Source: Caballeronia telluris (GTDB lineage Bacteria; Pseudomonadota; Gammaproteobacteria; Burkholderiales; Burkholderiaceae). Taken from it: a DNA stretch of 64,000 nt. The position numbers and the translations under genes are program-made. Of the stretch, positions 2-11,932 are shown piece after piece. Where the stretch lies: positions 496,001 through 560,000 of the forward strand of contig NZ_FCNZ02000001.1 of NCBI RefSeq assembly GCF_001544495.1. The letters run 5' to 3'. Each line of letters opens with the position of its first letter. The first letter of the stretch is position 1. The notes beneath the pieces are model-generated. The model did no database searches. It was not told where the DNA came from and saw only the letters and a list, made by a program, of their open reading frames with translations.

Positions 2-694
2 GGCGTGGCGCGCGATGCGCTCTCGTGGGTGCGGCGCGACGTCGAGAACGAGCTCAACAGCGCGAACGACAATCCGCTGATCGATCCCGACACCGGACGC
101 GTGCTGCACGGCGGCAACTTCTACGGCGGCCACATCGCGTTCGCGATGGACGCGCTCAAGACCGCCGTCGCGAATCTCGCGGACCTGATGGACCGCCAGT
201 TCGCGCTTCTCGTCGACGACAAGTTCAACAACCGTCTGCCGCGCAATCTGTCGGGCGCGACGGCGGAGCGGGCGCCGGTCAACCACGGCTTCAAGGCCGT
301 GCAGATTTCGTCGTCGGCGTGGACGGCCGAGGCGCTCAAGCTGACGATGCCGGCGAGCGTGTTTTCGCGTTCGACCGAGTCGCACAATCAGGACAAGGTG
401 AGCATGGGCACGATCGCCGCGCGCGACTGTCTGCGCGTGCTCGAACTCACGGAGCAGGTCGCGGCGGCGCACACGCTCGCGACCGTGCAGGCGGCGCGTC
501 TGCGCTTGCGGATCGACGGCGCGACGCAAGTGCCCGCGCCGCTGCGCGATTTCATGGAAAGCGTGACGCGCGCCTCGGCGTTCGTCGACGAAGACCGCGC
601 GCTGGAAAGCGACCTGCGCGCGCTGACGGCGCGAATCGCGGCATGCGGACTGGTCGATGCCGAAGCCGCTGGCGAGCACGGAGGCGCGGCATGA
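2..694 (+). CDS. Aromatic amino acid ammonia-lyase (HAL/PAL/TAL family), 3' part only
   Basis: C-terminal 230 residues of a histidine/phenylalanine/tyrosine ammonia-lyase family enzyme; the reading frame is open through the left edge, so the start and the MIO-forming Ala-Ser-Gly triad lie outside the window. Visible family signatures are NELNSANDNPLID (about residues 15-27 of the fragment), GGNFYGGH, and the C-terminal SHNQDKVSMG stretch. The family is usually 500-560 residues, so about 40% is seen. It is the first visible gene of the aryl polyene operon and its stop overlaps the next start. Inference: it deaminates an aromatic amino acid and so could feed an aryl starter unit. Substrate (His, Phe or Tyr) cannot be judged because the selectivity residues are upstream. 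Confidence 0.9.
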   Translation, partial: GVARDALSWVRRDVENELNSANDNPLIDPDTGRVLHGGNFYGGHIAFAMDALKTAVANLADLMDRQFALLVDDKFNNRLPRNLSGATAERAPVNHGFKAVQISSSAWTAEALKLTMPASVFSRSTESHNQDKVSMGTIAARDCLRVLELTEQVAAAHTLATVQAARLRLRIDGATQVPAPLRDFMESVTRASAFVDEDRALESDLRALTARIAACGLVDAEAAGEHGGAA

Positions 695-1122
695 TCGGCG
701 AGAAACGTTTGCTCGCCGCCAGCGCACGCGTCGAAGTGCCGTTTCACGACGTCGATGCGATGAACGTCTGCTGGCACGGACATTATCTGAAGTACTTCGA
801 GATCGGCCGGGCGGCGCTTTTGCGCGCGTTCGACTACGACTATCGCGAGATGCAGGCGTCGGGTTATCTGTGGCCGATCGTCGAGGCGCATCTGAAGTAC
901 GTGCGGCCGGCCGTGTACGGCCAGGAGATCGAAGTGCGCACGCAACTGCTGGAGTTCGAGAACCGCCTGAAGATCGGCTACGAGATCGTCGATCCGGCGA
1001 CGGGCGTTCGGCTCACGCGCGGACACACGATCCAGGTCGCGGTCGATGCCGCGACGCGCGAGCTTCAGTTCGTGTCGCCGCCGGTCGTGTTCGAGAAGCT
1101 GGAGCGCGCATGGGCTCGCTGA
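691..1122 (+). CDS. Acyl-CoA/ACP thioesterase, 4HBT hot-dog family
   Basis: 143-residue single hot-dog domain protein. The N-terminal FHDVDAMNVCWHGHYLKYFE stretch (about residues 18-37) matches the 4-hydroxybenzoyl-CoA thioesterase/YbgC pattern, with the catalytic-type Asp in HDVDAMN. ATG at 691 overlaps the lyase stop (ATGA), which suggests translational coupling. In aryl polyene clusters a thioesterase of this type sits just before the LolA-like gene, as here. Likely role (inference): releasing or editing acyl-ACP or acyl-CoA intermediates in the cytoplasm. Substrate not determinable. Confidence 0.88.
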   Translation: MIGEKRLLAASARVEVPFHDVDAMNVCWHGHYLKYFEIGRAALLRAFDYDYREMQASGYLWPIVEAHLKYVRPAVYGQEIEVRTQLLEFENRLKIGYEIVDPATGVRLTRGHTIQVAVDAATRELQFVSPPVVFEKLERAWAR

Positions 1123-1748
1123 CGCGCTGGATCGCGGTGTCGGCGGCGGCGTTGTCGCTCGCGGGCGGCGCGTGGGCGGCAGAAACCGCGCAGGACGCGG
1201 CGCTCGTCTCCGGTGTCGCGCGACATCTGGCCGAAACGGGCGGCGTGCGCGCGCAGTTCAAGCAGACGCGCACGCTCGCCGCGATGAAAGCGCCGCTCGT
1301 CAGCACGGGCTCGATCCTGTTCGTGCGCGAGCGCGGCGTGATCTGGCACGTCGAGACGCCGTACAAGGCAACTTACGCGATCACCGATGCGGGCATGCGC
1401 GAGATCGGAGCGAACGGGCAGCCGGGCGCCGCGCGCGGCAACGACGCGCGCGGCGCGGCGCAGGTGTCGCGGATGATGCGCGCGATGCTCGGCGGCGATC
1501 TGTCCGGTCTCTATTCGCAGTTCGACGTGAAGGCGCATGGCACGCCGTCGAACTGGCGGATCGAACTGACGCCCAGCCAGCCGCAACTCGCGCAGTCGGT
1601 CAGGCGTCTCGACATGAACGGCGGCGATTTCCTGCAAGGCTTGCGCATCGTGCTCGCCAATGGCGACGCCACGCAGATCGACTTCACCGGCAGCGCGCCG
1701 GCGGGCGAACTCTCGCCGGCTGAACGCGCGCAGTTCGGAGCGCCGTGA
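1110..1748 (+). CDS. LolA-like outer-membrane lipoprotein carrier family protein
   Basis: 212 residues. The N-terminus has a signal peptide ending near AGGAWA-AE (about residue 22), so the mature protein is periplasmic. The body resembles the LolA fold: early VRAQFKQTRTL, a central GVIWHVETPYKATYAI segment, then a C-terminal lipid-binding half. LolA-like proteins occur in aryl polyene clusters next to an RND/MMPL exporter and are thought to carry the hydrophobic product across the periplasm. The ATG at 1110 lies 13 bases inside the thioesterase gene; a longer in-frame extension exists upstream but has no signal peptide. The stop overlaps the exporter start (TGATG). Role as pigment-lipid shuttle is inference. 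Confidence 0.85.
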   Translation: MGSLTRWIAVSAAALSLAGGAWAAETAQDAALVSGVARHLAETGGVRAQFKQTRTLAAMKAPLVSTGSILFVRERGVIWHVETPYKATYAITDAGMREIGANGQPGAARGNDARGAAQVSRMMRAMLGGDLSGLYSQFDVKAHGTPSNWRIELTPSQPQLAQSVRRLDMNGGDFLQGLRIVLANGDATQIDFTGSAPAGELSPAERAQFGAP

Positions 1749-4147
1749 TGGAAATCCTGCAACGGCCCTCGTCGCGACAGATCTGGACCATGCGTTTCGC
1801 GTGGCTGCTGTTCGCGCTCGTCGCGGTGTCGTATTGCGGCTGGCGCTTCGCCGGGCCGTCGCCGTTGCAGACCAATCTCCTCGCGCTGTTGCCCGCGACC
1901 GAAGTCGATCCCGTCGCCGAAAAAGCCGCCGACAAGATGGCCGCCGCGCTCGGCGATCGCACGGTCTTCATCGTGACGAGCCCGGACGCGGAACACGCGA
2001 AGGCCGCGGCGAAGCAACTCGGCGCGACGCTGCGAACGAGCGGCGCGTTCCGCTCGGTGATCGCGACGCTGCCGCCTTTCGATGTCTCGTCGATCGGCGC
2101 GCTTTATCTGCCGTACCGCTTCGGCCTGCTCGCGCCCGCCGATCGCGCCGCGTTGCAGGACGGCTCGTTCGTCGCTCGCGAAGCGCTGCTTCAGCGTCTC
2201 TACAACCCGCTCGACAGCGGCCTCTCGACGCCGCTCGCCGACGATCCGTTCGGCTGGCTGCAACGCTATCTCGGCGGTCTGCCGCTCGCGACGTCGAATC
2301 TCGAACTCGAAGACGGCCTGCTCGTCGCGCATCGCGGCAATACGACCAGCGTGCTCGTCACCGCGACGCTCAACGGATCGGCGTATGAATCGGGCGTGCA
2401 GCGTACGGTGCGCGATGCTCTCGCGCGCGCCAAGGCTTCGCTCGGCGAGGCGCATCCCGACGTCACGCTCGATCGCCTGGGCGCCGTCTTTTATGCCGAA
2501 GCCGCGCGTAGTGCGTCGGAACGCGAAGTGCATCTGATCGGGCTGGTGTCGCTATGCGGCATCGGGCTTCTGATGCTGTGGGTGTTTCGCTCGCCGCGGC
2601 TCATCATGCTCGGTTTCCTGTCGACCGCACTCGGCATCGTCGCCGCGCTCGCCGTGACGATGCTCGTATTCGGCCAGCTTCATCTGCTGACGCTCGTCTT
2701 CGGCGCGAGTCTGATCGGCGAGGCAGTGGACTATTCGATCCAGTATTTCGTCGTCTATCTCGGCGCCGGGCGCGACTGGGACGCGGTCCAAGGCGCGCGC
2801 AAAGTGCGCCCGGCGCTCGCGGTCGCGCTCGCGACGAGCCTGCTCGGCTACGCGGTGCTGGCGTGCGTGCCGTTCCCCGCGCTCGAACAGATCGCGTGCT
2901 TCGCGATGGCGGGCATTCTCACGGCGTTCGCCTCGGTCGTGTGGCTCCTGCCGACGATGCTGCCGCGTCCGCCGAAGCATCGCCCGCGCTCCCTCTTCGA
3001 TGCAGCCGGCAAGCTGCTCGCGATCTGGCGGCGCGCATTCGGCGCACGCACCGGCTGGATATTCGCGCTGCTGCTGGCGATCGTCGCGGTGCCGGGCTGG
3101 CTGCGCCTGTCGAGCGACGACGACATCCGCCTGTTGATCCAGCGCGATCCCGCGTTGATGGCCGAGGAGCGCGCGGTGCGTGCGGCGGTGGGCATCGACG
3201 ATGGCGCGCAGTTCTTCGTCGTGCGCGGCGAGACGCCGGAGATCGTGCTGCAACGCGCCGAGGCGCTCGGCGCGCGGCTCGACGCGCTGCAAGGCGGCGA
3301 GCGGCTGCGCGGCTGGCAGTCGCCGGCGTCGTTCGTGCCGTCCGCGCGGCGTCAGCGCGAAAATCGCGCGCTTCTTGCACAGCGCCTCTTCGACGATCCC
3401 GCGAAGCTGCGCGCGACGCTCCTCGAAGCGGGTTTCCGCGATAACGTCGCCGACGCATGGATCGCGGCCGCGCGATCCAGCGACGCGATCCTGACCGTCG
3501 ACGCGTGGCTCGACGCACCGTGGTCGCGGCCGTTTCGCCATCTGTGGCTCGGCGAAGTGGATGCGTCGGCGCGCACGTATGCGGCCGTCGTCATGCCGCA
3601 GGGCGTGACGCCCGCGAACGAAGCCGCGCTCGTCAAGGCGGCGCGCGCGGTGCCGGGCGCGAGTTTCGTCGACAAGGCCATGAGCGTGTCGAAACTGTTC
3701 GGTGCCTATCGAATCGACAGCGGCGCATGGCTCGCGGGCGCGACGCTCCTGGTCGCCGCGTTGCTGTCGTGGCGCTATGGACTGCGCGGCGGCATCGCGA
3801 CGACGCTGCCCGTCGTGCTCGCGATCGGCGTGACGCTCGCTGTGTTCGGTTATCTGCGCGTGCCGTTCAATCTCTTCAACTGCCTCGCGCTGATGCTCGT
3901 GCTCGGCGTCGGCGCGAACTACGCCGTGTTCCTGCGCGAAGGCGCGTTGCGCGCGGCCGGCGACCTGGGCGCGGTGTGGGCGGGCGTGCTGCTCTCGGCG
4001 GCGACCACGCTGCTGTCCTTCGGCATGCTCGCCTTGAGCGCGATGCCGGCGCTGCAAAGCTTCGGCGCGACGCTCGCGCTCGGCATCGCGGTCTCGGTGA
4101 TGCTTGCGCCGATCGGCATGCCATCGAAACGAGGGGACCTCTCATGA
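1748..4147 (+). CDS. MMPL/RND-superfamily exporter
   Basis: 799-residue membrane protein in the two-repeat RND/MMPL layout: one TM helix near residues 15-35, a large periplasmic loop, a bundle of hydrophobic segments (about 250-400), a second TM plus loop, and a C-terminal bundle (about 640-790). Polar RND-type patterns include SLIGEAVDYSIQYF in the first half and LGVGANYAVFLREG in the second. Such exporters neighbour LolA-like proteins in aryl polyene clusters and are thought to move the finished polyene-lipid out of the inner membrane. An in-frame GTG at 1745 precedes the ATG; I chose ATG 1748 because it gives the TGATG overlap. Substrate assignment rests on context. Confidence 0.9.
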   Translation: MEILQRPSSRQIWTMRFAWLLFALVAVSYCGWRFAGPSPLQTNLLALLPATEVDPVAEKAADKMAAALGDRTVFIVTSPDAEHAKAAAKQLGATLRTSGAFRSVIATLPPFDVSSIGALYLPYRFGLLAPADRAALQDGSFVAREALLQRLYNPLDSGLSTPLADDPFGWLQRYLGGLPLATSNLELEDGLLVAHRGNTTSVLVTATLNGSAYESGVQRTVRDALARAKASLGEAHPDVTLDRLGAVFYAEAARSASEREVHLIGLVSLCGIGLLMLWVFRSPRLIMLGFLSTALGIVAALAVTMLVFGQLHLLTLVFGASLIGEAVDYSIQYFVVYLGAGRDWDAVQGARKVRPALAVALATSLLGYAVLACVPFPALEQIACFAMAGILTAFASVVWLLPTMLPRPPKHRPRSLFDAAGKLLAIWRRAFGARTGWIFALLLAIVAVPGWLRLSSDDDIRLLIQRDPALMAEERAVRAAVGIDDGAQFFVVRGETPEIVLQRAEALGARLDALQGGERLRGWQSPASFVPSARRQRENRALLAQRLFDDPAKLRATLLEAGFRDNVADAWIAAARSSDAILTVDAWLDAPWSRPFRHLWLGEVDASARTYAAVVMPQGVTPANEAALVKAARAVPGASFVDKAMSVSKLFGAYRIDSGAWLAGATLLVAALLSWRYGLRGGIATTLPVVLAIGVTLAVFGYLRVPFNLFNCLALMLVLGVGANYAVFLREGALRAAGDLGAVWAGVLLSAATTLLSFGMLALSAMPALQSFGATLALGIAVSVMLAPIGMPSKRGDLS

Positions 4148-5355
4148 ACCTGCCTCGCGTTTATCTGCACGCGCTCGGCATGCTCAACGCGCTGGGCAAT
4201 GATGTGCCGACGATCGTGAACGCGCTCGCCACGTCGAGCGCGCCCGGCATGGGCACGCTGCCCGATCGTGACGCACGTGACGCACATGACGCACGCGGCG
4301 CCGCCGTCTTCGCAGGCCGCGTGTTCGCGCCGCTCGACGTCGCGCCGCCTGCCGCGCTCGCGGCCTTCGACTGCCGCAACAACCGGTTGCTGCTGGCCGC
4401 GCTCGCGCAGATCGCGCCCGCCGTCGACGACGCTCGCGAGCGTTTCGGCGCGCATCGTATCGGCGTGGTGCTGGGAACGAGCACGTCGGGCATCGCGGCG
4501 GCGGAGGCGGCGCTCGCGCATCGCGCGCGAACCGGCGCGATGCCGGACGGCTTCGACTATCGGCAGATGGAAATCGGCACGGCCGCGCCGTTCGCGGCGG
4601 CGGCGCTCGGTCTCACCGGGCCCGCTTACACGATTTCGACCGCCTGCACGTCGAGCGCCAAGGCGTTTGCGTCGGCAAGACGCCTCTTGCAGTTGCATCT
4701 CTGCGATGCGGTCGTGGTCGGCGGCGTCGACTCGCTGTGCGAACTGACGCTTGCGGGTTTCGCGTCGCTCGAATCGACGTCGCCGGCGCGCGCGAATCCG
4801 ATGAGCCGTAACCGCGCCGGTATCAATGTGGGTGAGGGCGCGGCCGTGTTCCTGATGAGCCGCGAAGAGGCGCCCGTGTTCGTCGCGGGCACCGGCGAAT
4901 CGAGCGATGCGTATCACATCTCGTCGCCGGACCCGCAGGGCGTCGGCGCCGAGCGTGCGTTGCGCGCGGCGCTCGCGGATGCGCAGATCGACGCGCGCTC
5001 GATCGGCTACGTCAATCTGCACGCCACCGCCACGCGCAAGAACGACGAGATGGAAGCGCATCTGATGGCACGCGTCTTCCCGGGCGGCGTGGCCGCGAGC
5101 GGCACCAAGCCGCTGACGGCTCATCTGCTCGGCGCGGCCGGCGCAACCGAGCTCGGCTTCGCGTGGCTCACGCTCGCTTGCGAGGGCATGGCGTTGCCGC
5201 GTCACCTGTGGGACGGCGAGGCGGACAGCGCGCTGCCGCCGCTCGATCTCGTCGAAACGGAGCGCCCTCTGCGCGCCGTCGCGGGTCGGCGTTACGCGAT
5301 GAGCAATTCGTTCGCATTCGGCGGCAGCAACGCCAGCCTGATCCTCGGTGCATGA
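4144..5355 (+). CDS. Beta-ketoacyl-ACP synthase (first KS of the cluster)
   Basis: 403-residue KAS II-like (FabB/FabF) ketosynthase that condenses malonyl-ACP with an acyl chain. The active-site Cys is in STACTSSAKAF, the first His in NLHATATRKND, and the Lys/second His region is GTKPLTAHLLGAAG. The full Cys-His-His set is present, so it should be catalytic rather than a chain-length factor, which lacks the Cys. It starts with ATG overlapping the exporter stop and ends overlapping the dehydratase. The order KS-dehydratase-ketoreductase-KS matches the tail of the E. coli and Vibrio aryl polyene operons as I remember it. Which chain length it serves is unknown. Confidence 0.92.
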   Translation: MNLPRVYLHALGMLNALGNDVPTIVNALATSSAPGMGTLPDRDARDAHDARGAAVFAGRVFAPLDVAPPAALAAFDCRNNRLLLAALAQIAPAVDDARERFGAHRIGVVLGTSTSGIAAAEAALAHRARTGAMPDGFDYRQMEIGTAAPFAAAALGLTGPAYTISTACTSSAKAFASARRLLQLHLCDAVVVGGVDSLCELTLAGFASLESTSPARANPMSRNRAGINVGEGAAVFLMSREEAPVFVAGTGESSDAYHISSPDPQGVGAERALRAALADAQIDARSIGYVNLHATATRKNDEMEAHLMARVFPGGVAASGTKPLTAHLLGAAGATELGFAWLTLACEGMALPRHLWDGEADSALPPLDLVETERPLRAVAGRRYAMSNSFAFGGSNASLILGA

Positions 5356-5834
5356 CGATGCCTTTCGATACTTCCGGACCATTCCCGCCGATCGACACGA
5401 TCCTGCCGCATCGCGGCACGATGCTTCTGCTCGATTCGATCGTCGCGCTCAGCGACGAGTCGCTTCGCGCTCACGCCACGGTTCATGGCGACGCCTGGTA
5501 CGCCGATGCGAAAGGCGCGATGCCAGCGTGGATCGGCATCGAACTGATGGCGCAGGCGATTGCGGCGCATGTCGCGCTGATCGCGATGCGCAAGGGCGAG
5601 CAGGCGCGGCCCGGCGTGCTGCTCGGATCGCGCAGCTACGAGGCGCTTCGGCCGTCGTTCGCGCGCGGTTCGCGGCTCGTCGTCAGCGCGACGGAACTGT
5701 TGCGCAGCGAAGCGGGCCACGGCGCGTACGAATGCGCCATCGCAATCGACGACGTCTGCTGCGCGCAGGCCGTCGTCAAGGTGTTTCAACCGACCGATTT
5801 CCGGTCTTTCATCGAAGGAAGTGTCAGCTCATGA
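5352..5834 (+). CDS. 3-hydroxyacyl-ACP dehydratase (FabZ/FabA-type hot dog)
   Basis: 160-residue hot-dog dehydratase. LPHRGTMLLLDSIV (about residues 20-33) has the catalytic His position of FabZ-type enzymes, and WIGIELMAQAIAAH carries the acidic residue and hydrophobic helix of the family. It would dehydrate the 3-hydroxyacyl-ACP made by the adjacent reductase to the trans-2-enoyl-ACP. No enoyl reductase is visible in the cluster, which fits retention of conjugated double bonds in a polyene. ATG at 5352 overlaps the KS stop; the alternative ATG two codons later is equally possible. Confidence 0.9.
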   Translation: MTMPFDTSGPFPPIDTILPHRGTMLLLDSIVALSDESLRAHATVHGDAWYADAKGAMPAWIGIELMAQAIAAHVALIAMRKGEQARPGVLLGSRSYEALRPSFARGSRLVVSATELLRSEAGHGAYECAIAIDDVCCAQAVVKVFQPTDFRSFIEGSVSS

Positions 5835-6556
5835 ACCGGCGTGTTCTCGTCACCGGAGCGAGCCGCGGCATCGGCCGTGCGATCGCTTATCAGCTCGCAA
5901 CAGACGGCTTTGCCGTGACGGTGCATTGCCGCACCGGCCGCGCGGAAGCGGACGCGGTCGCGACCGGCATCGCCGCGCAGGGCGGCGTGTCGCGCGTGCT
6001 GCAGTTCGACGTGCGCGAGCGCGCCGCCTGCCGCGCCGCGCTCGAAGCCGATGTCGCGGCGCACGGCGCGTACTACGGCATCGTCTGCTGCGCGGGCGTG
6101 ACGCGCGACGCCGCGTTCCCCGCGCTGACCGACGAGGACTGGGACGTCGTCATCGAGACCGGCCTCGACGCGTTCTACAACGTCGTTCATCCGCTGACCA
6201 TGCCGATGGTGCGCGCGAAGCAGGGCGGGCGCATCGTGACGATCGCGTCGGTATCGGGCGTGACGGGCAATCGCGGGCAGGTCAACTACAGCGCGGCGAA
6301 GGCCGGCGTGATCGGCGCGACCAAGGCGCTCGCGGTGGAACTCGCCAGCCGCCACATCACCGTGAATTGCGTCGCACCGGGGCTGATCGAAACCGGCATG
6401 CTCGACCAGATGCCGCTCGAAAGAGCGCTGCAAAGCGTGCCGATGAACCGCGTCGGACAGCCCGCCGAAGTCGCCGCCGCCGTGAGCTTTCTGATGTCGG
6501 ATGCGGCGTCCTACATCACGCGTCAGGTGCTCGGCGTGAACGGCGGGATGATCTGA
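5831..6556 (+). CDS. 3-oxoacyl-ACP reductase (FabG-like SDR)
   Basis: 241-residue classical short-chain dehydrogenase. The nucleotide-binding glycine motif is TGASRGIG near residue 8, and the catalytic Ser (IASVSG) and YSAAK motif follow. The C-terminal ends in QVLGVNGGMI, like FabG. It should reduce the beta-keto group made by the neighbouring ketosynthases with NADPH. The ATGA overlap with the dehydratase and the 1-base overlap with the next KS place it in the same transcript. It is the dedicated reductase of this cluster, not the housekeeping fabG, because no fabD/acpP/fabF neighbours are present. Confidence 0.92.
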   Translation: MNRRVLVTGASRGIGRAIAYQLATDGFAVTVHCRTGRAEADAVATGIAAQGGVSRVLQFDVRERAACRAALEADVAAHGAYYGIVCCAGVTRDAAFPALTDEDWDVVIETGLDAFYNVVHPLTMPMVRAKQGGRIVTIASVSGVTGNRGQVNYSAAKAGVIGATKALAVELASRHITVNCVAPGLIETGMLDQMPLERALQSVPMNRVGQPAEVAAAVSFLMSDAASYITRQVLGVNGGMI

Positions 6557-7782
6557 TGAAGCGCGTTGTCGTAACAGGAATGGGCGGCGTGACCGCGCTC
6601 GGCGATCAGTGGAGCGAGATCGAAGCCGCGCTCGAAGCAGGGCGCAACGCCGTGCGCCGCATGCCCGAATGGGACTACTTCGAGTCGCTGCATACGCGGC
6701 TCGCGTGCCCGCTGCCGGGTTTCGTCGCGCCCGCGCACTATCCGCGCAAGAAGACGCGCTCGATGGGACCCGTCTCGCTGTATTCGGTGCGCGCGAGCGA
6801 ACTCGCGCTCGCCGATGCGGGCCTGACCGGCGACACGAGCATCGCGGACGGCCGCATGGGCGTGGCGTATGGATCGTCGTCGGGATCGGTCGAGCCGATA
6901 CGCGCGTTCGGCACCATGCTGTCGACCGGTTCGATGAGCGAAGTCACGTCGAACAGCTACGTGCAGATGATGCCGCACACGAGCGCCGTCAACGTGAGTC
7001 TCTTCTGGGACCTGAAAGGGCGGATCGTGCCGACGTCGTGCGCGTGCGCATCGGGCAGCCAGGCGATCGGCTACGCCTACGAAAGCATCGCGACGGGCAA
7101 GCAGGCGATGATGCTCGCGGGCGGCGCGGAGGAACTGTCGGGACCGGCGGTCGCGGTCTTCGACACGCTGTATGCAACCAGCACGCGCAACGACGAGCCG
7201 CATCTCACGCCGCGTCCATTCGATGTCGCGCGCGACGGTCTCGTCGTCGGTGAAGGCGCCGCGACGCTCGTGCTGGAGGAATACGAGCACGCCGTCGCGC
7301 GCGGGGCGCGCATCCACGCGGAGATCGCGGGCTTCGGCTGCAATTCGGACGGCGTGCACATCACGCAGCCGACCGCCGCGACGATGGCCCGCGCGATGCA
7401 GCTCGCACTCGACGACGCGCATCTCAAGCCCGAAGCGATCGCGTATGTGAACGCGCACGGCACGTCGACCGATCGCGGCGACCTCGCGGAGAGCCACGCG
7501 ACGGCGCAGGTCTTCGGCGAGCGCATGCCGATCAGTTCGCTCAAGAGCTACGTCGGGCATACGCTCGGCGCGTGCGGCGCGCTCGAAGCGTGGTGGACCA
7601 TCGAAATGATGAAGCGCAACCGCTACGCGCCGACGCTCAATCTGACGCAGCCCGATCCCGCCTGCGCGCCGCTCGACTACATCATGCACGAGGCGCGCGC
7701 GATCGACGCCGAGTATGTGATGAGCAACAACTTCGCATTCGGCGGGATCAATACGTCGCTGATTTTCAGGCGCGCGCCGTGA
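6556..7782 (+). CDS. Beta-ketoacyl-ACP synthase (second KS)
   Basis: 408-residue KAS II-like enzyme beginning MKRVVVTGMGGVTALG. Active-site Cys in TSCACASGSQAIG, first His in NAHGTSTDRGD, Lys and second His in SSLKSYVGHTLGACG, so the catalytic set is complete. The C-terminal NNFAFGGINTSLIF is typical of elongating ketosynthases. Start ATG 6556 shares a base with the preceding TGA. By position (KS-DH-KR-KS) it corresponds to the distal KS of classical aryl polyene operons. Together with the other two KS genes it implies a division of labour between initiation and elongation that cannot be resolved from sequence alone. Confidence 0.92.
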   Translation: MKRVVVTGMGGVTALGDQWSEIEAALEAGRNAVRRMPEWDYFESLHTRLACPLPGFVAPAHYPRKKTRSMGPVSLYSVRASELALADAGLTGDTSIADGRMGVAYGSSSGSVEPIRAFGTMLSTGSMSEVTSNSYVQMMPHTSAVNVSLFWDLKGRIVPTSCACASGSQAIGYAYESIATGKQAMMLAGGAEELSGPAVAVFDTLYATSTRNDEPHLTPRPFDVARDGLVVGEGAATLVLEEYEHAVARGARIHAEIAGFGCNSDGVHITQPTAATMARAMQLALDDAHLKPEAIAYVNAHGTSTDRGDLAESHATAQVFGERMPISSLKSYVGHTLGACGALEAWWTIEMMKRNRYAPTLNLTQPDPACAPLDYIMHEARAIDAEYVMSNNFAFGGINTSLIFRRAP

Positions 7783-9050
7783 GTAGTATCGCGCGTCGCG
7801 GCGTGTCGCGCGTGGTCGTGACCGGCATGGGCATCGTGTCGTGTCTCGGCAATTCGCTCGACGATGTGTCGTCGCGTTTGCGCGCCGGACGCTCGGGGAT
7901 CACGCGCGTTCAAGCATGGCGCGAGCGCGGCTTCGCGAGCCAGGTGGCGGGCGTCGCCTCGGTGGGCGACGAAGCGCCGTTCGATCGAAAGATCGAGCGT
8001 TTCATGGGCGACACCGCGCGCTTTGCGTGTCATGCGGCGCGCAAGGCAGTGGAAGACGCCGGCCTCGATCCGCATGCGTTGCGCTCGCCGCGCGCCGGGG
8101 CGGTGATCGGCTCGGGCATCGGCGCGATGGCCGCCTATGACGCCGCGATGAAGACGGCCAACGCGCGCGGCATCGACAGGGTGCCGCCGTACACGGTGCC
8201 ACAGGCGATGAGCAGCACCGCGTCCGCGAGCGTCGCGCAACTGTTCGGCATCGAAGGCGCGAGCTATTCGCCTTCGTCCGCGTGCACGACGTCCGCGCTT
8301 GCGATCGGCCAGGCGATGCAACTGATCGAGAGCGGCCGGCAGGACATCGTGCTCGCGGGCGGCAGCGAGGCGCTGCACGACAACATGACGCTGATGTTCG
8401 ACGCGATGGGCGCGTTGTCGCGGCGTTTCAACGACACGCCGGAGCGCGCGTCGCGTCCCTACGACACCGCGCGCGACGGCTTCGTGATCGCGTCCGGCGG
8501 CGGCGTGCTGGTGCTCGAATCGCTCGATCATGCGCTCGCGCGCGGTGCGCGCATTCACGCGGAACTGACCGGCTTCGGACATTGCACCGACGGCGCGGGC
8601 ATGATCTCGCCGAGCGCGCCGGGAATCGCACGGGCGATGCGCGCGTCGCTCGATGACGCGGGCGCGTATCCCGACTACGTCAACGTGCATGCGCCATCGA
8701 CCGTGAGCGGCGACCGCGAGGAAGCGCACGCGATGACCGACGTGTTCGGCGCGCTCGTCCCGCCGTTCTCCGCGACCAAGCGCTGGACCGGGCATCCGCT
8801 GGGCGCGTGCGGCGCGCACGAAGCGATCTACACGCTTCTCATGATGCGCGATGGGTTCATCGCCGGAACGGGCGATATCGACGCGCCGGATGTCTGTATA
8901 AGCGGACTTCCGCTGGTCACGGCGTCGCGGGCGACGCGGATTCGCCGCGCCATGTCGGTGTCGTTCGGCTTCGGCGGAAGTTGCGCGAGCCTCATGTTCG
9001 AAGCCTGGGCGCAAGCCGAACCAAAAACTTTTCTACACAACAAGGAATAA
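7779..9050 (+). CDS. Beta-ketoacyl-ACP synthase (third KS)
   Basis: 423-residue KAS II-like protein. Cys in SSACTTSALAIG, first His in NVHAPSTVSGD (Ala-Pro replaces the usual Gly-Thr), and Lys/second His in SATKRWTGHPLGACG. The start is a GTG at 7779 overlapping the previous stop (GTGA); an internal ATG would cut into the conserved VVVTGMG strand, so GTG is preferred. The Cys means it is not an obvious chain-length factor, although the altered NVHAPS segment sets it apart from its two neighbours. It may handle the aryl starter or extend a different acyl-ACP (inference). Confidence 0.88.
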   Translation: MSSIARRGVSRVVVTGMGIVSCLGNSLDDVSSRLRAGRSGITRVQAWRERGFASQVAGVASVGDEAPFDRKIERFMGDTARFACHAARKAVEDAGLDPHALRSPRAGAVIGSGIGAMAAYDAAMKTANARGIDRVPPYTVPQAMSSTASASVAQLFGIEGASYSPSSACTTSALAIGQAMQLIESGRQDIVLAGGSEALHDNMTLMFDAMGALSRRFNDTPERASRPYDTARDGFVIASGGGVLVLESLDHALARGARIHAELTGFGHCTDGAGMISPSAPGIARAMRASLDDAGAYPDYVNVHAPSTVSGDREEAHAMTDVFGALVPPFSATKRWTGHPLGACGAHEAIYTLLMMRDGFIAGTGDIDAPDVCISGLPLVTASRATRIRRAMSVSFGFGGSCASLMFEAWAQAEPKTFLHNKE

Positions 9051-9052
9051 CG

Positions 9053-9481
9053 ATGAGAAGCACATACTGGGTGAGCATGCTGGCGGCAACCGTCGCGCTG
9101 AGCGGCTGCGGGACGAGCTTCATGTCGCTGCCGGCCCAGCCGGTCGCAGACCAGGCGACGATGCCGGACGCGAAGGTCGCGCTCTATCTGAAGTCGCAAG
9201 CGCATCCGGCTGTCGTGAAGGTGATCGGGCGCGTGGAGCATTCCGTGCGCATCGCGCGCAACACGGACGACAGCGCGACCGCATGCAGACGCGCGTTCGC
9301 GGAAGGGCTGCAGAAGCTGCGAGTGAACGCGCAGGACCGCAACGCGAACGCGGTCGTCAACATACGGACGTCGTTCCACGCGAACGATCCGGAGATGGCC
9401 ACGGACTTCGCGTGCGGCGTGAGCCCGAGTGCCGCATCGCTGAAAGTGGCCGGCGATCTGGTCGTGATCGGCGCTCGCTGA
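9053..9481 (+). CDS. Small lipoprotein at the end of the aryl polyene operon
   Basis: 142 residues with a lipoprotein signal: a hydrophobic stretch ending LSGC, lipidated Cys at about residue 16. The mature part has two further Cys and a segment NANAVVNIRTSFHAND recalling small heavy-metal-binding/YbjQ-like folds; I do not recognise a defined function. Databases sometimes label similar genes as excinuclease-like, which the sequence does not support because there is no ATPase motif. It follows the third KS by two bases, so it is probably the last gene of the operon. A role in the envelope with the polyene product is inference from location. Confidence 0.75.
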   Translation: MRSTYWVSMLAATVALSGCGTSFMSLPAQPVADQATMPDAKVALYLKSQAHPAVVKVIGRVEHSVRIARNTDDSATACRRAFAEGLQKLRVNAQDRNANAVVNIRTSFHANDPEMATDFACGVSPSAASLKVAGDLVVIGAR

Positions 9482-9509: not shown

Positions 9510-10295
9510 TTAACGCTCGTCGTCGGCTTGCCTGATGGCCGCCACGTTGACGAGCGTCTCACGCCGCTTGCCGGGCTTCGGGCGATGCAGCCCGAGCCGC
9601 TCGAAAAGGCCGAAATCGGCTGCGCGGCTCCACCAGAGATAGGGAAGCGAGACGTTGCGCGGCTCGAACGCGAAGCCGGCGGCGCGGATCATGTCCAGAT
9701 AGGCGCCGGCGCTTTTTTGCACCTGCATCGGATGGCGGAACAACAGGCGGATGACCCACGACTTGATGTAGGCATCCGTCGATTCCGCGAACAGCAGCAC
9801 GCCGCCCGGCTTCAGCACGCGCCGGAATTCCGCAAGCGCGTTCGCCTGATCGACGAGGTGGTGGAACGTCTGGTGGCAGAACACGATGTCGGCGCTCGCG
9901 TCGGGCAACGGCAGCTTCGCGCAGTCGCCATGCAGCAGTTCGATCTCGCAGCGCGCGCCGCTTTGCGCGCGGCAGGCGTCGGCCGCTTGCGCCGCGACGC
10001 GCAGCGACGGCTCGTGGTAATCGACGCCCACGATGCGCGCCGGCTTGAACGCATCGGCGAGGAGCCGGAACGATTTGCCCTGTCCGCAGCCGACATCGAC
10101 GATGACGGGCGATACCGGACGCCGGTCGCCGATGAGCCGCGTGAGGTCGTTGATCGCCACGCGAAGGACGTGATGCTCCCAGGTATGCGTGCGCAGGAAC
10201 CAGATGCCGAACGCCGTCTCGGGCACGAAGGGAACGCGATGAATTTCGGATGGCGACACGTCTTGGCTCCGTCGGCGGGGTGCGTGGTTAAGCAA
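9510..10295 (-). CDS. Class I SAM-dependent methyltransferase
   Basis: 261 residues. Motif I is VIVDVGCGQGKS (about residues 63-74), followed by VGVDYHEPSL, the ADIVFCHQTFHHL segment and the post-motif LKPGGVLLFAES, a Methyltransf_11/25-type Rossmann methylase. It is convergent to the aryl polyene operon and divergent from the halogenase-like gene. Aryl polyene head groups are often methylated, so this enzyme may modify the pigment (inference); equally it could be a separate small-molecule methylase. The ATG at 10295 gives the whole domain plus a short N-terminal tail. Confidence 0.85.
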   Translation of the reverse strand: MLNHAPRRRSQDVSPSEIHRVPFVPETAFGIWFLRTHTWEHHVLRVAINDLTRLIGDRRPVSPVIVDVGCGQGKSFRLLADAFKPARIVGVDYHEPSLRVAAQAADACRAQSGARCEIELLHGDCAKLPLPDASADIVFCHQTFHHLVDQANALAEFRRVLKPGGVLLFAESTDAYIKSWVIRLLFRHPMQVQKSAGAYLDMIRAAGFAFEPRNVSLPYLWWSRAADFGLFERLGLHRPKPGKRRETLVNVAAIRQADDER

Positions 10296-10365
10296 TGCGC
10301 CATTGTAGGTGTTGGCACTCGTGCCGCGACAGCGTTACATCACCCGTGCATTGAAAGAGGTCAAA

Positions 10366-11625
10366 TTGAATACGAGTACGCTGGATCATCGGAACGTCGA
10401 CGTTGACGTGGACGTCGCCATCATCGGCGCGGGACCTTCGGGCGCGGTTGCGGCAGCGATGCTGCGCAAGGCCGGCCGCTCCGTGCGCGTGCTGGAGCGG
10501 CAGCAATTCCCGCGCTTTTCCATCGGCGAGAGCCTGCTGCCGCAGAGCATGGCGTATCTCGAAGAGGCGGGCATGTTGCGGGCGGTCGTCGAAGCCGGCT
10601 TCCAGTACAAGAACGGCGCGCGGTTCGTGCGGCGCGACGAAACGTCGGCCTACGATTTCCGCGACAAACATTCGCCGGGATGGGGCACGACCTATCAGGT
10701 GGAACGCGCGACGTTCGACGATCTGCTGATCCGCTGCGCGGCGGCGCAGGGCGCCGACGTCCGCTTCGGCCACACCGTGCACGCGATCGAAACGGGCGAG
10801 CGTCCGGCGCTCGACGTCACCGATGAAAACGGCACGCCGTATCGCCTGCAAGCGCGCTTCGTGCTCGATGCGAGCGGCTTCGGGCGCGTTCTGCCGCGCC
10901 TTCTGAACCTCGAAACGCCGACCGGCTTGCCGACGCGCGCCGCGCTCTTCACGCATGTGCGCGACGACATGCCGCTCTGCGCGATCGATCGCGAGAAGAT
11001 CAGCGTGGTGGTGCATCCCGAACACGGCGACGTCTGGTACTGGATGATCCCGCTCGCGGGCGGACGCGCATCGGTCGGATGCGTGGCCGAAGGCGATTTC
11101 CTGCAATGCGCGGAAGACGAGCGCGAGAGCCGGCTGCGTTCGCTGATCCGGCAGGAGCCGACGCTTGGCGCGTGGTTCGGCGACGCGCCTTTCCTGATGC
11201 CGGTACGAACGATCGGCGGTTACTCGGCCAACGTCGAGCGCTTGCATGGGCCCGGTTATGCGCTGCTCGGCAACGCGGGGGAGTTTCTCGATCCGGTGTT
11301 TTCGTCGGGTGTGACGATCGCGCTGCGATCCGCGCATCTCGCCGCTCGCGTGCTCGTGCGGCAACTGTCGGGCGAGACGGTGGATTGGCAAGTCCAGTAC
11401 GACGATGAACTGCGTCGCGGAATCGACGTGTTTCGCGCGTTCGTCGAGCGGTGGTACTCGGGCGAGTTGCAGGCGATCCTGTTCTATCCGGAGCAGACGC
11501 CGCAGATCCGGCGCATGGTCAGCGCCGTGCTCGCGGGATACGCATGGGACGAGACGAATCCGTTCGTCAGGGACGCGGCGCGTCGGCTCGACGCGCTTTA
11601 CGAGGTCTGCAAGACGAACGGTTGA
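10366..11625 (+). CDS. Flavin-dependent halogenase-like FAD enzyme
   Basis: 419 residues. The FAD-binding GxGxxG is GAGPSG at residues 21-26. Two features point to the halogenase branch of flavin monooxygenases: WYWMIP at residues 224-229, a perfect WxWxIP motif, and Lys82 in FQYKNGARF, which lines up with the lysine that carries hypohalous acid in known halogenases. No ATG lies near the conserved N-terminus; a TTG at 10366 follows an AAAGAGG ribosome site (10354-10360), so I use it. A GTG at 10309 would add 19 unlikely residues. It is divergent from the methyltransferase and next to the polyene cluster. Brominated aryl polyenes (xanthomonadins) are known, so halogenation of this pigment is a reasonable inference; a plain FAD oxidoreductase is the alternative. 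Confidence 0.8.
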   Translation: MNTSTLDHRNVDVDVDVAIIGAGPSGAVAAAMLRKAGRSVRVLERQQFPRFSIGESLLPQSMAYLEEAGMLRAVVEAGFQYKNGARFVRRDETSAYDFRDKHSPGWGTTYQVERATFDDLLIRCAAAQGADVRFGHTVHAIETGERPALDVTDENGTPYRLQARFVLDASGFGRVLPRLLNLETPTGLPTRAALFTHVRDDMPLCAIDREKISVVVHPEHGDVWYWMIPLAGGRASVGCVAEGDFLQCAEDERESRLRSLIRQEPTLGAWFGDAPFLMPVRTIGGYSANVERLHGPGYALLGNAGEFLDPVFSSGVTIALRSAHLAARVLVRQLSGETVDWQVQYDDELRRGIDVFRAFVERWYSGELQAILFYPEQTPQIRRMVSAVLAGYAWDETNPFVRDAARRLDALYEVCKTNG

Positions 11626-11932
11626 TGCGCGAGCATCGTCCGCAATCAAGTGGGTATCGAGCGCCGTTCTTTCATGGCGTTCGGCGAACCTCCAGATACC
11701 CGCTTGGCGTTTCCCCGAGAACGCGACGAAATGCCGATGCGAACGCGCTGGGGCTTGCGTACCCCAGATCAAGCGCAACGCGGGTGACGGCCTGACCTTC
11801 GCTCAAGCGTTCCTTTCTTCTCGATGCAATAACCGTCGCCGATCCGAACGATCTCGTCGAGTTTCCAAAAAATCGGGATTCGTCTGAAATGTTAAGGTAG
11901 TGGTCGGATTATTTTGAGATGGAAACCGCAGG
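11626..11932. other. Intergenic stretch holding an AraC remnant
   Basis: About 300 bases between the halogenase-like gene and a lipoprotein gene. The only structure I find is the reverse-strand AraC C-terminal fragment listed separately. The segment from about 11825 to 11932 is more AT-rich and probably holds the promoter of the lipoprotein gene at 11933. Confidence 0.5.
11672..11821 (-). pseudogene. 3' remnant of an AraC/XylS-family regulator gene
   Basis: Reading the reverse strand to a TGA at 11674-11672 gives about 49 residues, including VTRVALDLGYASPSAFASAF followed by RRVLGETPSGY. This is the second helix-turn-helix and the family signature of AraC/XylS C-terminal domains. Upstream on that strand no sensible N-terminal domain or first helix-turn-helix continues in any frame and no start is found, so the gene is a fragment of a protein normally near 250-330 residues. 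It probably marks an old deletion or rearrangement at the edge of the pigment locus. The reading is by eye, so a frameshift boundary near 11820-11830 is approximate. Confidence 0.72.

Follow-up and report, generated by a model that had tools for sequence, protein, structure and literature searches.

Several described pigment systems resemble the locus studied here. The aryl polyene (APE) cluster of E. coli (apeA-R) encodes acyl carrier proteins (ACPs), an acyl-ACP synthetase, ApeI and ApeP dehydratases, a glycosyl/acyltransferase, a thioesterase, LolA, an exporter, ketosynthases (KS) and a ketoreductase, and its 18-gene table contains neither an ammonia lyase nor an FAD enzyme (PMC8253772). 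The ring of the flexirubins comes from tyrosine, and chlorinated rings are known among them (PMC3992019). Halogenase genes have been reported both within xanthomonadin clusters, in two Xanthomonas species, and next to related genes of other genomes (PMC3691225). The arc genes of Azoarcus include arcA, annotated as a halogenase, arcB, a chorismatase, and arcC, an outer membrane (MltA-interacting) protein; the arcuflavin described with them is given as C41H52O4, halogen-free although the cluster has a halogenase gene (PMC3949708). A halogenase gene in such a cluster is therefore no guarantee of a halogenated pigment. As for the enzymes, the WxWxIP motif of halogenases has been proposed to block hydroxylation and their lysine to hold HOX (PMC10696468), a Lys-to-Ala change abolished the activity of BrvH (PMC5945002), and FxxPxxSxG is used in halogenase mining (PMC12645471).

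The window, by which we mean the whole stretch of 64,000 nucleotides analysed, opens inside a polyene operon that starts about 7 kb upstream in the same contig DNA and ends at 9481. Its features around the FAD gene are as follows:

5-694, plus strand: aromatic amino acid ammonia lyase, 3' part (whole gene L006:13087-14694)
691-1122, plus strand: 4HBT-type thioesterase, in the ApeK place by gene order
1110-1748, plus strand: LolA-like carrier, in the ApeL place by gene order
1748-4147, plus strand: MMPL-family exporter, in the ApeM place by gene order
4144-5355, plus strand: beta-ketoacyl synthase KS1, in the ApeO place by gene order
5352-5834, plus strand: ApeP-like dehydratase (PF22817)
5831-6556, plus strand: ketoreductase, in the ApeQ place by gene order
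6556-7782, plus strand: beta-ketoacyl synthase KS2, in the ApeR place by gene order
7803-9050, plus strand: beta-ketoacyl synthase KS3
9053-9481, plus strand: putative lipoprotein, without a Pfam match
9510-10259, minus strand: SAM-dependent methyltransferase (Methyltransf_11), pointing away from the FAD gene, 106 bases from it
10354-10360, plus strand: putative ribosome-binding site AAAGAGG, five bases 5' of the TTG at 10366
10366-11625, plus strand: type A halogenase-like FAD protein, TTG start, 419 residues

Upstream of these genes the order runs from a ketosynthase-N-domain protein in the chain-length-factor place (PF13723) through an acyltransferase, two carrier proteins (PF00550), an ApeG-place protein without a Pfam match, and an AMP-binding synthetase fused to an ApeI-like dehydratase domain to an ApeJ-like glycosyltransferase/acyltransferase, and then the lyase. 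The gene set of an ammonia-lyase-type APE cluster is complete: ACPs, ApeH-like synthetase, ApeJ-like protein, lyase, thioesterase, LolA, exporter, KS, ApeI/ApeP and ketoreductase. It shares the core of the E. coli cluster and differs in having both the lyase and the FAD enzyme. The original prediction had set the gene beside a polyene operon and a methyltransferase, and these are indeed its neighbours. The divergent arrangement of methyltransferase and FAD gene recurs at six loci (L089-L092, L096 and L098). A scan of the 19 cluster proteins found no flavin reductase among them. The cluster lyase has Gln where the histidine-lyase-like proteins of the same genome have Glu; Gln at this position marks the tyrosine/phenylalanine type, and the flexirubin lyase FlxA, of the same type, prefers tyrosine (PMC3992019). 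Because of this signature, the product of the cluster likely has a 4-hydroxyphenyl (phenolic) head group.

Two smaller observations concern the gene content of the window. Between the exporter and the first ketosynthase (1748-5355) a DUF3261 (ApeN/LolB-like) gene would not fit, unlike in the Pseudoalteromonas and Acinetobacter clusters, which do have one; the lipoprotein at 9053-9481 might take the DUF3261 role. Just 3' of the FAD gene, at about 11668-11800 on the minus strand, lies a C-terminal fragment of an AraC-type helix-turn-helix protein, ending in ...VALDLGYASPSAFASAFRRVLGETPSGYLEVRRTP and then a stop, which, lacking the N-terminal part, we judge by eye to be a gene remnant.

The FAD gene translates from 10366 to 11625 into 419 residues without an internal stop, and its longest open frame begins at a GTG at 10309. 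The original prediction had started the protein at the TTG behind a good AAAGAGG site. Both elements are present, and a TTG occupies the matching place in all 10 near relatives whose start codons were compared. It is the sole in-frame ATG, GTG or TTG between the upstream stop and the conserved Ile19 in four of them (L008, L009, L021 and L040), while four (L011, L012, L013 and L015) have one extra start upstream of it and two (L010 and L014) have later starts besides. The TTG start is thus plausible, being common to the near relatives, yet other relatives have ATG or GTG near the matching site; with alternative starts in 6 of the 10, the predicted start stands with a qualification, and the longer GTG start is possible.

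In Pfam, the window protein scored 80.8 bits for PF04820 (Trp_halogenase; cut-off 21) and 70.2 bits for FAD_binding_3. It is encoded by the sole PF04820 gene found in the genome, where two matching stretches belong to one ORF. None of the NCBIfam models listed (25 of 124) reached its own cut-off: the CmlS halogenase model scored 138.8 against 900, the QhpG flavin monooxygenase model (NF049967) 113.7 against 240 bits, and the geranylgeranyl reductase model (TIGR02032) 108.4 against 158.8 bits, which leaves the protein outside the latter two families. The QhpG and geranylgeranyl reductase models do match all 51 family members at E up to 1e-10.

We then looked at the halogenase motifs. The protein carries GxGxxG (residues 21-26), Lys82 within GFQYKNGARF, WYWMIP (224-229) and FLDPVFSSG (307-315), and in the PDB alignments Lys82 falls on the lysine of PltA, ChlB4, 5buk and CndH. 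For conservation we used 122 loci with a hit, 121 of which had a long enough frame (L033, whose frame is broken, was dropped), giving 101 distinct sequences, among which the window protein stands for its own locus. We gave the name type A to those with 45% or higher identity to the window protein (n=92) and type B to those at 32-36% (n=9). G21, G23 and G26 of GxGxxG are invariant in 92/92 type A sequences, and Lys82, W224/W226/I228/P229 and F307/P310/S313/G315 (FxxPxxSxG) are invariant in all 92 type A and all 9 type B sequences; the 51-row alignment A2, made of the window protein and the named loci, has the same invariant residues. Such invariance across relatives means that Lys82, WxWxIP and FxxPxxSxG are not chance occurrences, and both the exact WxWxIP motif and the halogenase-type lysine of the original prediction hold up. 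Two other positions set type A apart: Asn303, found in 92/92, replaces the Asp shared by type B and the aligned halogenases, and Glu306, found in 91/92, occupies a site with other residues in both of those groups. WxWxIP and FxxPxxSxG are absent from the four other FAD-protein loci of the same genome in which they were sought (L240, L242, L244 and L246) and from the UbiH-like L245.

A PDB search with a profile of the 51 family members returned 16 distinct chains at E up to 1e-10. The first was 3nix (485.1 bits), followed by 13 halogenase chains from ChlB4 (206.7 bits) down to PltM (85.2 bits); a geranylgeranyl reductase came 15th with 53.3 bits, and a flavin monooxygenase was also among the 16. 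Eleven of the 13 chains after 3nix have 'halogenase' in their names, the other two being ChlB4, which we take to be a halogenase, and 'Alkylhalidase CmlS', which NCBIfam names a halogenase. The window protein alone gave 3nix with 360.9 bits, then 5buk, ChlB4, CndH and further halogenases. The halogenase likeness that had been proposed is thus borne out, with halogenases heading the ranking after 3nix and every signature residue in place, and the best matches are not all geranylgeranyl reductases lacking halogenase residues. No chain named as a tryptophan halogenase is among the 16 matches to the family profile, so the protein is not closest to the solved tryptophan halogenases, as the public label 'tryptophan 7-halogenase' would suggest.

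The best match, 3nix, presumably from the distant bacterium Cytophaga hutchinsonii, is a 'Flavoprotein/dehydrogenase' in its record. It shares the lysine, WxWxIP and GNA-EFLDP-FSSG with the window protein and falls within the type A clade (100/100), where its partner is an Aureispira protein (99/96); a full-text literature search by PDB code yielded papers which, to judge by their titles, all deal with battery or ceramic materials. PltA (5dbj), ChlB4 (7fco) and 5buk, which we take to be carrier-protein-dependent pyrrole halogenases, rank directly behind 3nix, with 192.7-206.7 bits against the family profile. They have the lysine, WxWxIP and FxxPxxSSG as in type A, but GDAARF where type A has GNAGEF. 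CndH (3e1t) and CmlS (3i3l), which presumably belong to other pathways, scored 188.7 and 177.5 bits with the same profile, and the motifs of CndH are those of the window protein.

In a midpoint-rooted tree of 44 proteins, in which long branches meet, type A together with 3nix and the Aureispira protein (28 rows) was separated from the rest by a branch with 100/100 support and a length of 3.93. Type B (11 rows, 100/99, with identities as low as 31%), the CndH/CmlS-like proteins, and ChlB4 and 5buk lay on the other side, so that the latter two are split from type A by a long, fully supported branch (PltA was outside the tree). A second tree, of 21 proteins with a UbiH-like outgroup from the same genome, also kept type A together (100/100) and placed it with 5buk, CndH and CmlS-like rows (94/95), but its outgroup branch amounts to 10 changes per column, an outgroup too distant for the root to be trusted. 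Type B formed one group in 14% of the bootstrap trees there, as against 100/99 in the 44-protein tree. QhpG proteins, sought as an outgroup, were not found among 143 genomes, in a search that cannot show absence. Judged by its sequence and signature, the window protein is a member of the halogenase superfamily, in a clade separate from the characterised halogenases in the 44-protein tree.

How widespread is this clade? Within the genus, 38/58 genomes have matches at E up to 1e-20; 27/58 carry a type A gene, which in G051 is interrupted by stops, and the other 11 have only 32-34% matches. Across the family, 96/249 genomes in 10/25 genera carry one. A phylum-wide sample gave matches at E up to 1e-50 in 52/398 genomes, 47 with type A and 5 with type B, and ApeJ is also present in 46 of the 47 type A genomes (the exception is G082). 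Conversely, 33 of the 79 ApeJ-bearing genomes of this sample, a set that also takes in a few of type B kind (G630, for example), have no type A gene, and all 11 listed f18 genomes are among these 33; this optional presence fits a tailoring step. The named type A loci, the best 80 of 539, include Vibrio, Photobacterium, Shewanella, Methylobacter, Marinobacter and Cupriavidus, and records in the plasmid collection with type A genes come from Burkholderia multivorans, Acinetobacter and Pseudoalteromonas. The original prediction had implied that such genes are rare in Burkholderia relatives, and this part of it failed: with 96/249 family genomes carrying them, and Vibrio, Shewanella, Acinetobacter and Pseudoalteromonas as well, type A genes in Burkholderia relatives are not new.

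The surroundings of these genes are recurrent but not uniform. Of the named loci (the best 80 of 539), 75 have at least two other APE genes nearby; of the remainder, L143 has one other APE gene, and at L150, L156, L180 and L200 the FAD gene stands alone. At 29 of 31 further type A loci there are again at least two, while L094 and L097 show one. The order exporter-FAD-KS1 occurs at 16 of these 31 loci and at 36 of the 80 named ones (best 80 of 539). Instead of it, the window and its near kin have the FAD gene divergent from the methyltransferase. In Vibrio it stands at the opposite end of the cluster, again in divergent orientation, and in the Pseudoalteromonas and A. baumannii records it sits between the gene in the exporter place and that for a DUF3261 protein. 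Public labels for the orthologues in these last records are 'tryptophan 7-halogenase' and 'NAD(P)/FAD-dependent oxidoreductase'. A strict coupling of FAD gene and ammonia lyase can be rejected: among 20 ApeJ loci taken from genomes that lack type A, 7 have the lyase (L211, L214-L217, L225 and L226), at least two of the 20 being contig ends too short to judge (L228 and L229), and several type A loci have no lyase match (e.g. L090, L102, L106 and L119). Type A is a common, optional member of APE clusters.

Some individual records deserve mention in their own right. The broken gene of the same genus (G051:C106:2834-3990, L033), in a genome of 3.9 Mb, is an orthologue split by stops into three matching pieces. 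A type A relative in Neisseria gonorrhoeae (about 52% identity) is in three pieces in both NZ_CP119140.1 (158264-159454) and NZ_CP119142.1 (157392-158582), and may be decayed. In Methylovulum, L193 and L196 show two FAD protein matches within one APE cluster, perhaps a duplicated gene. 'Tryptophan 7-halogenase' genes of Paraburkholderia tagetis have been filed under plant growth promotion (PMC10110911); if any of them is type A, the label misleads. Finally, two contigs of genome G000, C11 and C19, contain matches in mirror pairs on opposite strands. The C11 pairs (62615/169516, 63991/168140, 5830/226301 and 6750/225381) each sum to 232131, and the C19 pairs (49000/75159 and 49089/75070) to 124159. 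Each contig has the look of a long inverted duplication, possibly an artefact of assembly.

The comparison with xanthomonadin is best made through type B, the proteins of xanthomonadin-like clusters, which are 31-36% identical to the window protein in a compared set without a named Xanthomonas sequence. At L115 the type B gene adjoins an FkbO/Hyg5-type chorismatase. A MipA protein and an acyltransferase are the neighbours at L109, and in Azospirillum we found MipA, an acyltransferase, a glycosyltransferase, FabG, a dehydratase and a chain-length factor. This order resembles that of the arc genes, from which arcA (azo3921) would be type B. No such cluster was seen within 8 kb of the Variovorax type B gene (L233) among frames from simple prediction, and L114 and L117 have no other APE match at the locus, so not every type B gene was seen to be cluster-bound. 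Other species of the genus have a type B FAD gene in another polyene cluster (L034-L036 and L109-L111), in some genomes (e.g. G004, G016 and G017) in addition to type A.

From the observed sequence, motifs, clade and recurrent cluster context we infer a scheme in which the window protein would be an FADH2-dependent halogenase-type tailoring enzyme of the APE cluster, acting on the phenolic head group; we put its probability at about one half. The ammonia lyase would convert tyrosine to 4-coumarate. Once attached to an acyl carrier protein, this starter would be elongated by the type II synthase. The FAD enzyme, supplied with FADH2 by a reductase encoded elsewhere, would make HOX at its flavin, and Lys82 and the WxWxIP strand would steer this to the phenolic head group, at the carrier-bound stage or on the finished polyene. 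The product would have a chlorinated (or brominated) ring, with the halogen probably ortho to the hydroxyl. The PDB ranking (3nix, then halogenases), the invariant Lys82, WxWxIP and FxxPxxSxG, the APE-cluster setting and the Tyr/Phe-type lyase all argue for halogenation. Against it stand the 3.93 branch that parts type A from both the characterised halogenases and type B, Asn303 and Glu306, the lack of a flavin reductase among the 19 cluster proteins scanned, and the QhpG and reductase models that match every member. The halogen-free arcuflavin also speaks against it, though that gene order resembles type B, as does the halogen-free flexirubin of Chitinophaga pinensis, C43H54O4, for which the pigment formula alone was considered (PMC3992019). 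What tells most against halogenation is that type A lies far from proven halogenases and has two altered flavin-site residues. Our search of the aryl polyene, flexirubin and xanthomonadin literature, with most subscription journals outside it, found no paper on the function of a type A enzyme. We know of no product of any type A cluster.

The main rival is hydroxylation: type A might have arisen from the halogenase fold as a flavin monooxygenase and hydroxylate the polyene or its aryl head group; from the latter a catechol, for instance, could be formed and then be methylated by the methyltransferase encoded next to it. We regard this as possible but hold it tentatively. The separation of type A from characterised halogenases would suit it, as would Asn303 in place of their Asp, the methyltransferase adjoining the FAD gene at six loci, and the match, below its cut-off, to QhpG, a flavin monooxygenase with a halogenase-like structure. 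Weighing on the other side are the presence in 92/92 sequences of Lys82 and of WxWxIP, a motif proposed to prevent this very reaction, and a PDB list headed after 3nix by halogenases, not hydroxylases. A non-oxygenating flavoenzyme (a reductase, dehydrogenase or isomerase) working on the polyene, in the manner of geranylgeranyl reductases or MenJ, seems improbable. It could draw on the TIGR02032 matches in 51/51 members, but it would leave the strict conservation of the halogenase lysine and WxWxIP unexplained, the window protein scores well under the TIGR02032 cut-off, and the best reductase structure ranks next to last in the PDB search; the latter two scores rule out membership of the geranylgeranyl reductase family itself.

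Very improbable, in our view, is a xanthomonadin-type brominase that would give a brominated aryl polyene exactly as in Xanthomonas. The Pfam family PF04820, the motifs and lysine (9/9 in type B) and a polyene cluster are common to both, which is what the original comparison with xanthomonadins had built on. That link proved weak: type B, in the set without a named Xanthomonas protein, is distant in identity and lies across the fully supported branch from type A, its genes stand by a chorismatase (L115) or in MipA/acyltransferase clusters whereas the window cluster has an aromatic ammonia lyase, and no second PF04820 gene was found in the genome. Tree position and different starter genes together disfavour the brominase.

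Altogether, the window gene is an unremarkable further member of a widespread and already annotated clade whose function is uncharacterised in the sources seen, and the idea of a halogenated aryl polyene matters more for the whole type A clade than for one strain. If the type A enzyme is not a halogenase, then three halogenase motifs and the lysine do not prove halogenation. If it is one, halogenation of membrane pigments would be common in many genera, and not peculiar to Xanthomonas and some flexirubins. As a tentative suggestion from sequence comparison, type A enzymes may be true halogenases forming a lineage with its own flavin-site signature (Asn303 and Glu306), in which case a large share of bacterial APE clusters (46/79 ApeJ-bearing genomes in the phylum sample) might make halogenated pigments that have been overlooked.
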